Source: Chitinophaga sp. MM2321 (lineage in GTDB: Bacteria > Bacteroidota > Bacteroidia > Chitinophagales > Chitinophagaceae). From it: DNA of 64,000 nt. Below the pieces are notes generated by a model. The model was not told the DNA's origin, ran no database searches, and was given only the letters and a program-made list of their open reading frames with translations. Location of the stretch: NCBI RefSeq assembly GCF_964033635.1, contig NZ_OZ035533.1:496001-560000 (forward strand), in the 5' to 3' direction. The position numbers and the translations under genes were made by a program. Positions 19,894-21,100 of this stretch are shown here, piece by piece; the stretch's first letter is position 1; each line of letters begins with the position of its first letter.

Positions 19894-19920
19894 AATTGGG
19901 CAGTCACTGACTGCCCAATT
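19894..19920. repeat. YhcG-associated palindrome, copy 1
   Basis: A 27-bp perfect palindrome with arms AATTGGGCAGTCA and TGACTGCCCAATT around a single C. Its last base is the first plus-strand base of the nuclease gene's stop codon (19920-19922). Related to copies at 20668 and 21056. Confidence 0.9.
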
Positions 19921-20975
19921 TATATATTGTTATTTTTTAATCCCACTTCGGTCTCCAGCATTTTTGACAAAGTATCCGCATCAGGTAAAATATCTTTCAT
20001 TTCTTTGGGTACTTCTTTGGAATGTGTATAAGTGCCAACGCTCATGGCGCTATCAATAGATCTGATGGCATAATCAACTACCATATTATCTTTCTCTTTA
20101 CACAATACAATACCAATGCTGGGATTTTCATGCGGTAATTTCACCATGTCATCCAGTACATTCAGATAAAAATTAAGTTGCCCGGCATACGCAGGTTTGA
20201 ACTTTTTTCTTTTAAGCTCAATTGCAACAAGACATTGCAGATGACGGTTGAAAAAAAGCAGGTCGACATAAAAGTCCTGCGTATTTATCACTAGTTTGTA
20301 TTGATTGCCAATGAAGGAATATCCTTTACCCATGCTCATGATGAACTTCCTGATATTATTGACTATTCCGGCCTCGAGTAGGTGCTCATCTTCATCTTCT
20401 TCCAATACCACAAAATCCAGCAGGTATTGATCCTTGAAAACTTCTAACGCTTTTGCCTGTATTTTTTCCGGTAAGGTTTTATTGAAGTTATTGGGCATTT
20501 TTCCCTGGTGCAGGAAGAGTTGTGCATGAATGTGATGCTCCAGTTGCCGTACAGACCAGAATTGAGTTGCGGCTTCGGAGATGTAGAAGAGGCGTTCGGC
20601 TTCTTTTTCACATTTGTTTAATATCAGTATGTGGTGTGTGAAACTGATGCCATAAAAGGAGTGTTGTAATTGGGCCGTCACTGACGGCCCAATTGGGAGA
20701 GTACGGTAAGAATCATAAAATTGACGCATGTTCCTCAGGTTCCTGGAAGAGAATCCCTTTAATCCTGGCAGCTCATGTTGGAGATCATTTGCTATTTGAT
20801 CAATTACAGTTATACCCCAATTTTCTTCAGCCGTTTTTACAGAAATCATCTGTCCCAATTGGAAATAAAGGATCAGTTGCTCCTGATTGGCTAATCTTGA
20901 AGCGATGTATCTGCTTCGTATAATACGCTGTTTAATATCAAGTACAAGTTCTTTGTAAGAAATAGTTGTTTCCAT
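19920..20975 (-). CDS. PDDEXK nuclease domain protein (YhcG / DUF1016)
   Basis: A 351-residue protein of the YhcG family, widespread and patchily distributed. The N-terminal DUF1016 helical region (residues about 5-160) contains GFSSRNLRNMRQFY and SFTHHILILNKCE. The C-terminal PD-(D/E)XK domain shows FYVDLLFFNRHLQCL (Asp) then VAIELKRKKF (Glu-x-Lys). The biological role of YhcG proteins is unsettled, and links to restriction systems and mobile DNA have been suggested from context. This gene is bracketed by palindromes of one family, and a third copy lies in frame at codons 94-103. The reading frame is intact through it. It stands alone between the pigment block and the M14 peptidase gene. Confidence 0.9.
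   Translation of the reverse strand: METTISYKELVLDIKQRIIRSRYIASRLANQEQLILYFQLGQMISVKTAEENWGITVIDQIANDLQHELPGLKGFSSRNLRNMRQFYDSYRTLPIGPSVTAQLQHSFYGISFTHHILILNKCEKEAERLFYISEAATQFWSVRQLEHHIHAQLFLHQGKMPNNFNKTLPEKIQAKALEVFKDQYLLDFVVLEEDEDEHLLEAGIVNNIRKFIMSMGKGYSFIGNQYKLVINTQDFYVDLLFFNRHLQCLVAIELKRKKFKPAYAGQLNFYLNVLDDMVKLPHENPSIGIVLCKEKDNMVVDYAIRSIDSAMSVGTYTHSKEVPKEMKDILPDADTLSKMLETEVGLKNNNI
20668..20694. repeat. YhcG-associated palindrome, copy 2, inside the nuclease coding sequence
   Basis: A 27-bp perfect palindrome with arms AATTGGGCCGTCA and TGACGGCCCAATT around C. It differs from copy 1 by one A:T to C:G change on both arms, so pairing is kept. It encodes the segment IGPSVTAQL (residues 95-103) on the minus strand. 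Its length equals nine codons. Confidence 0.9.
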
Positions 20976-21055
20976 TTTATTTAAATTCTAAAATAAAGTG
21001 AATAAATTTTTACACAAAAAATCCGAATACTTTTTATATAATTAATTCATTATCA

Positions 21056-21100
21056 ATCATTTATAATTTGGCAGTCACTGACTGCCAAATTATAAATGAT
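21056..21100. repeat. YhcG-associated palindrome, copy 3
   Basis: A 45-bp perfect palindrome with 22-bp arms around a single C. Its central 17 bases GGCAGTCACTGACTGCC equal those of copy 1. Outside the core a symmetric G:C to T:A change again keeps pairing (AATTTGGC against AATTGGGC). It lies 80 bp before the nuclease start. Confidence 0.9.

Follow-up and report, generated by a model that had tools for sequence, protein, structure and literature searches.

A palindrome held in frame within yhcG (DUF1016) nuclease genes, a probable binding site of the N-terminal domain of the encoded protein

Most of the sampled genes of the YhcG (DUF1016) nuclease family, from Bacteroidota, E. coli, Proteus and viral contigs, contain a palindrome in frame within their own coding sequence. 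We consider it likely that this palindrome is the site read by the N-terminal domain of YhcG itself. The 27-bp unit (AATT-N7-CASTG-N7'-AATT, N7' being the complementary bases, or a variant with CA and TG three bases apart) would be the double-stranded DNA site of a ParB/Noc-like domain, and YhcG would probably read it as a homodimer. In most yhcG genes the putative site stands in frame within the segment coding for the DNA-binding domain, usually shortly after the recognition helix, so that the specificity of the protein and its site would travel together. Paired changes of the two arms would be expected because a change in the helix alters both half-sites at once. Extra copies beside the gene, as in the window, in E. 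coli and elsewhere, may be further sites of the same protein, which would thereby be directed to the gene that encodes it and to DNA carrying related genes.

Three perfect palindromes are found in the window, the whole stretch of 64,000 nucleotides that was analysed, and a direct check of the sequence placed them exactly where a preliminary description had put them. The downstream one (AATTGGGCAGTCACTGACTGCCCAATT, 27 bp, positions 19894-19920, without strand) shares one base with the TAA stop codon of yhcG. The internal one (AATTGGGCCGTCAGTGACGGCCCAATT on the gene strand, 27 bp, 20668-20694, minus strand) is in frame, and the upstream one (45 bp with 22-bp arms, 21056-21100, without strand) lies 80 bp before the yhcG ATG and includes the 27-mer unit at 21065-21091. 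The paired differences reported among the copies were confirmed, with stems GGGCAGT, GGGCCGT and TGGCAGT and both arms altered each time, as was the restriction of the core to these palindromes, GTCACTGAC being found three times in the 64 kb and nowhere else there. What that account had missed is that the copies also agree in their length of 27 bp, in the AATT at each end and in the CASTG centre, so that all three share the unit AATT-N7-CASTG-N7'-AATT. They are the only perfect odd 27-mers of the window, and none appeared in 100 dinucleotide shuffles. Without mismatches, the 17-base core pattern GGCNGTCASTGACNGCC matched only the three window sites in the whole genome of 6,778,472 bases, and it was found in none of 116 other sampled genomes of the family because the stems differ between relatives; the general pattern was used afterwards.

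The gene (19920-20975, minus strand) codes for a protein of 351 amino acids with two Pfam domains, DUF1016_N (residues 13-154, 20514-20939, minus strand; 118.9 bits) and the PD-(D/E)XK nuclease YhcG_C (19986-20444, minus strand; 183.9 bits), both over the cut-offs. At E ≤ 0.001 Pfam gave nothing else in this protein, including no tyrosine (Y1/HUH) transposase domain, and all 87 relatives compared matched both domains. The internal palindrome codes for residues 95-103 (IGPSVTAQL), a low-confidence loop in the AF2 model, and relatives carry palindromes with other stems in the same region. The same genome has two further yhcG genes, and in each of them an in-frame palindrome with a different stem occupies the equivalent position. 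The putative recognition helix (residues 76-88, SSRNLRNMRQFYD, 20712-20750, minus strand), assigned from the AF2 model and the helix-stem covariation described below, stops 17 bp short of the internal palindrome of the window. Nucleases of the DUF1016/YhcG family, whose function is unknown, are very common: two protein searches, with 8000 candidates scored in each, gave at least 6990 and at least 8000 relatives. The family is listed in PADLOC as the candidate defence gene PDC-S02. In the parts consulted of Kosinski et al. 2005 (PMC1189080), the nuclease was placed nearest to YraN and the archaeal Holliday-junction resolvases, and the N-terminal domain was described as mainly helical with no confident matches.

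The generality of the internal palindrome was measured without any pattern, by taking the best odd palindrome of each gene, scoring 13 arm pairs and comparing with synonymous-codon shuffles that preserve the protein and the codon usage. The 150 distinct genes, left after removal of 18 duplicates among 168, were drawn from most, although not all, of the listed full-length genes, from 30 loci and from further searches. At least 12 of 13 pairs were found in 92 of them against 0.48 expected, and all 13 in 44 against 0 expected. Seven genes (L087 and L196-L201) had entered the set because of a pattern match; without them 85 of 143 had at least 12 pairs and 40 of 143 had 13 (0.40 and 0.02 expected), and removal of all ten such genes (also L050, L092 and L093) left 82 of 140 with at least 12. 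As a second set, 47 genes were taken from plasmid records and viral contigs without regard to the pattern; of these, 24 had at least 12 pairs and 7 had 13, against 0.12 and 0 expected. The viral-contig loci numbered 0, 2 and 2 with single-protein queries and 38 with an alignment query. The best palindromes of this set reached 13 pairs in E. coli and Proteus, 12 in Paraburkholderia and 11 in Pseudanabaena and Deinococcus; those of Nostoc, Thiospirochaeta, Rhizobium and Rhodococcus reached only 10, which is weak taken alone, and lie in frame in the same region. The length of 27, the AATT ends, the CASTG centre and a single reading frame recurred in both sets. Of 97 strong cases, 94 have the centre on the first position of a codon. 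The unit directly precedes an S-W-T-H motif in many genes, and in one subfamily (L188-L191 and L057) it lies about 30 residues earlier. On the Deinococcus plasmid (L210) and the Thiospirochaeta plasmid (L208) yhcG, with internal palindromes of 11 and 10 pairs, adjoins DNA methyltransferase genes, and in L210 it has a methyltransferase gene on one side and a gene for a restriction subunit S on the other.

The internal copy is the rule and flanking copies are the exception: 126 of the 150 genes have an in-frame internal palindrome of at least 11 pairs, whereas only 15 have a flanking copy, so the terminal palindromes that had been emphasised at first do not hold as a general feature. They were rejected as the defining one, since the 21 flanking matches came from only 15 loci, at least two are probably due to chance and one, in L104, belongs to a neighbouring yhcG. 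This L104 copy was kept in the comparison of flanks, from which were left out the flanks of the first gene of L040 (those of the next yhcG), L140 and L186 (judged to be chance) and L020 (whose gene is without an internal palindrome of at least 11 pairs). A transcription terminator was likewise rejected as an explanation, because it cannot account for the in-frame copies. Where a copy lies outside a gene or at its edge, its arms can be very long, longer than those of in-gene copies, for example 59 bp with one mismatch at L084:2035-2093 and a perfect 71 bp at L093:2547-2617.

The preliminary description had also proposed that something keeps the two-fold symmetry, and this is borne out by the comparison between genes, in which the stems differ and are nevertheless self-complementary. 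Among 113 distinct in-gene 27-mers, all four Watson-Crick pairs occur at stem positions 3 to 9, counted from the centre, and the two arms pair in 736 of the 791 stem cells, against a mean of 284 and a maximum of 328 when the arms were re-dealt between genes in 1000 trials. There is little variation in the AATT ends or in the centre, whose middle base is C in 59, G in 47, T in 4 and A in 3. A second class of palindrome has CA and TG three bases apart, and a tryptophan in an R-[QK]-W motif near the end of the helix was found in 13 of 26 genes of this class, in one of three unclassified genes and in none of 97 of the first class. Between close gene pairs (80-90% identity, n = 84) we counted 65 one-arm and 73 paired changes; one-arm changes are thus numerous and the symmetry is imperfect.

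Covarying arms would also be produced by a hairpin in the yhcG mRNA, either controlling translation or decay or bound as RNA by YhcG, in which the RNA stem is kept. The fixed frame and region within the coding sequence would suit such a hairpin, as would the central triplet, mostly R-S-Y and a possible triloop. However, mismatches on the coding strand are A.C in 41 cases and G.T in 26, while an RNA stem should favour G.U, and C and G are about equally frequent at the centre, which makes orientation irrelevant. Both observations led us not to favour the RNA hairpin. In addition, flanking and solo copies lie outside genes and the stems track a helix of DNA-binding type, so that we regard this explanation as very improbable.

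Recognition of the palindrome as double-stranded DNA by YhcG itself, the reading that we prefer, is supported by the predicted fold of its N-terminal domain, which appears to resemble the palindrome-binding domains of ParB and Noc. This likeness comes from structure comparison with VIA-align, the first AF2 model being weak (pLDDT 62) and the second better (68). Foldseek alone gave mostly matches to the nuclease domain and of low quality, with none at E < 0.001 for the second model, and a sequence search of the PDB found no relative. The ParB HTH profile PF17762 touched 46 of 87 relatives at E values up to 5, the best being P0227 (1.9e-5, 25.1 bits for a cut-off of 22.6); three other relatives searched singly scored 17.5-21.2 bits for the same cut-off, and neither the window protein nor E. 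coli YhcG was matched.

The stems vary together with the putative recognition helix, taken as the 13 residues after a G-[FLWY] turn. This helix could not be located in 32 of 126 genes, and the remaining 94 gave 168 related pairs. The partial correlation between stem and helix differences, controlled for how far the nuclease part and the segments on either side of the helix had diverged, was 0.53, a value reached in none of 2000 permutations with stems re-dealt within clusters; the control segments before and after the helix gave -0.07 and 0.18. Examples of helix and stem are RQLERY with GCGTCCG, RQVELI with GCGAATA or GCGAACG, RQINLY with GTGCATA and RQLAFF with GTGAACA. In all pairs taken together, without correction for relatedness, stems differed steadily more as helices did, and among aligned pairs with nuclease parts less than 60% identical the stem differences were 3.14 for similar helices against 4.67. 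Two E. coli alleles differ in both helix and stem, with conserved sequence on either side of these differences. As a counter-case, the helix NLNNM is paired with two unlike stems, and mutual information over all columns favoured the helix only at the very top, which is partly supportive. Of the functions first suggested for the palindromes, a binding site of the nuclease is the best supported, through this covariation and the ParB/Noc-like domain.

The same evidence for binding would serve equally if the palindrome were an operator within the gene, bound by YhcG only to repress its own transcription, with the nuclease having an unrelated role such as phage defence. Upstream copies near gene starts at some loci (80 bp before the ATG in the window, and in L093) and the PADLOC candidacy of the family would fit with it. 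On the other hand, most genes have no copy at the promoter, solo palindromes persist without the gene, and the replacement of loci and truncations near palindromes, described below, suggest more than repression. Repression as the only purpose of binding therefore seems to us possible and rather unlikely.

The pattern AATT-N7-CACTG-N7-AATT was matched 117 times in 60 Chitinophaga genomes, with one to eight matches in each of the 47 genomes that had any. Within 2.5 kb of a YhcG_C domain there were 69 matches, all with 5 to 7 of the 7 stem pairs, whereas 31 of the 48 matches elsewhere had 0 to 4, the level of chance, and 17 had at least 5. These 17 correspond to 16 stretches, nine of them with remnants of YhcG (in one case only a scar of 11 residues) and seven without. 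The palindromes are tied to YhcG genes, as had been proposed, and the even spread through the genome without a link to YhcG that would have spoken against the proposal does not occur. In 198 genomes of the phylum, 19 matches with at least 5 of 7 pairs were near a YhcG domain and 14 far from one on the same contig, the corresponding numbers for 4 pairs or fewer being 2 and 65; this table excludes the own genome (five rows), and one of the 14 far well-paired matches, one of three on a contig of G261, was inspected. This genome has no YhcG_C match and carries three identical perfect palindromes on one 25-kb contig (L202, C5:1-3000). One of them lies near an apparent cas1 and a CRISPR-type repeat array (by eye), with a weak YhcG-like stretch nearby (E 3.5e-4).

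The distribution bears on another reading, in which the palindrome is a selfish element inserted in the manner of a Rickettsia palindromic element (RPE), tolerated in frame within a loop and without any role for YhcG, and its symmetry would come from hairpin-templated copying. In its favour, the palindrome codes for a low-confidence loop, several genes have two or three in-frame copies, and in E. coli both arms are replaced together at orthologous positions. A general insertion would hit many genes, and in the 60 genomes all 69 matches near YhcG have at least 5 of 7 pairs while 31 of the 48 others have 4 or fewer; furthermore, the 27-bp length, the ends, the centre and the one frame recur in both gene sets. 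We give little credence to a selfish insertion of this kind. According to the portions consulted of PMC4316617, RPEs likewise lie in frame inside coding genes; they are of about 100-150 nt and occur in many genes, spacers and RNAs, whereas the YhcG unit is 27 bp long and found in one gene family. The spread over unrelated genes seen with RPEs is not found here, with 69 well-paired matches near YhcG and 17 elsewhere, nine of whose 16 stretches hold remnants.

If YhcG does bind the palindrome, the most likely consequence would be that its PD-(D/E)XK domain cuts or nicks DNA locally and so drives the conversion, replacement or loss of yhcG blocks, or else that the gene is repressed from within. 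Mobility of the gene and cleavage by YhcG are both putative. In E. coli, at least 80% of the yhcG query was matched in 3310 of 5426 genomes, and in 944 genomes a single place covered at least 80% of the 56-base site from a strain without yhcG. The three opened records without the gene have one 27-bp palindrome left after gltD, in one of them with an IS30 between it and nanQ. K-12 has a near-copy after gltD (L220:9513-9539), three in-frame copies in yhcG and one past its stop codon; since the near-copy lies about 7 kb before yhcG, a gltF-yhcG block stands between palindromes. In an O121 record yhcG is truncated at an internal palindrome, and in an O26 record the stretch with the second and third internal palindromes is lost.

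At the KS/M14 site, which lies between the KS and M14 genes, is the place of yhcG in the window and was viewed in 30 of the 60 Chitinophaga genomes, 10 loci have yhcG (of visibly different subfamilies, one broken), 3 have palindromes without an intact gene, and 17 have neither the gene nor a CASTG palindrome. The prediction that empty sites would be found was therefore borne out, with the palindrome alone in the three E. coli records and neither element in these 17 loci. Syntenic relatives that keep the gene without palindromes, which had been expected not to occur, are absent at KS/M14, where all 10 yhcG loci have an internal palindrome of at least 11 of 13 pairs; elsewhere, 24 of the 150 genes have no in-frame palindrome that reaches 11. 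In G143 (L077:2039-3785) an AlbA_2/RecG-like gene lies between two YhcG-type palindromes at this site and adjoins an 11-residue scar of the yhcG C-terminus. In G120 (L091:1702-4140, the same place as L040) two different yhcG genes stand in tandem, the second with three in-frame palindromes within about 130 bp. Switching by inversion between palindromes was rejected, no reversed C-terminal piece having been seen in the 16 orphan stretches. The palindromes may drive these changes of the locus or may simply outlast them.

A homing-type unit, in which YhcG would cut at sites bearing the palindrome and repair would then copy, replace or delete the yhcG block, would agree with the alternation at KS/M14 of yhcG subfamilies, palindromes without yhcG, the AlbA_2 gene with its scar, and nothing. 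It would also agree with E. coli having either the block or a solo palindrome, and with proteins 69-70% identical in Chloroflexi and Methanoperedens records. Against it, homing genes normally interrupt their target, while here the gene keeps an intact site, and no precise insertion boundary was found; the changes may be insertions or deletions. We hold the homing-type unit as a tentative possibility only. A related proposal, about which we are similarly reserved, is that YhcG genes are self-addressed selfish nucleases which would cut the self-site in rival or incoming alleles, leading to conversion, exclusion or replacement, with reader and site diversifying as matched pairs across bacteria. 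Self-repression and a homing-like contest are both compatible with the palindrome being read by YhcG and can both be true, so that the probabilities given here need not sum to one.

Each component has known relatives. In the sections seen of Jalal et al. 2020 (PMC7383237), ParB/Noc with their parS/NBS sites combine a helical DNA-binding domain, a palindromic site and a specificity set by a few residues at the DNA interface, features that YhcG would share. YhcG differs by its PD-(D/E)XK domain, with no other ParB domain found in the window protein, and by sites of 27 bp, few per genome and within the gene itself. Some parS sites do lie inside parB-type genes. PD-(D/E)XK homing and restriction endonucleases have the same type of nuclease domain, and their sites are palindromes whose centre is degenerate; CASTG is also the core of TspRI, and we know of none of these enzymes that carries an intact site in its own coding sequence as a family trait. 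As far as the text available to us of Nunvar et al. 2010 (PMC2817692) goes, RAYT/REP systems likewise link the gene of a DNA-cutting enzyme to its own palindromes, with apparent co-evolution of both; RAYTs, however, are tyrosine transposases flanked by REPs, usually in more than 100 copies per genome, whereas YhcG is a PD-(D/E)XK protein with few copies (the 17-base core at three places in the genome) and the constant one is in frame in the gene. Nematomorph mitochondria, in what we consulted of PMC6649704, also have inverted repeats inside functional coding genes; these reach 284 bp, are found in mitochondrial protein-coding genes and are not linked to a DNA-binding protein.

The finding is real and general, and as far as we searched it is undescribed in the open-licence literature. 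What is new is the arrangement, with genes writing the site of the reader into their own coding sequence, the nuclease family, the ParB-like domain and palindromic sites being of known kinds. To our knowledge nothing else corresponds to a self-site that stays in frame in different phyla and retains its symmetry despite protein-coding constraints. In the portions consulted of the open-licence literature on YhcG/DUF1016 (including PMC4316617, PMC7967276 and PMC1189080) there is no report of palindromes or of a ParB-like N-domain, and neither YhcG nor DUF1016 appears in the paper on the ParB-CTPase fold (PMC12704722). If each gene does hold its own site, thousands of reader-site pairs could be extracted straight from genome sequences and would form an unusual natural data set on specificity change in helix-turn-helix proteins. 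The family would then have a substrate, and E. coli K-12 would serve to test its function.

Records named Chloroflexi, Methanoperedens and uncultured archaeon encode proteins (P0134, P0138 and P0145) that share about 69-70% identity with a Chitinophaga YhcG, which suggests wide transfer of the gene.
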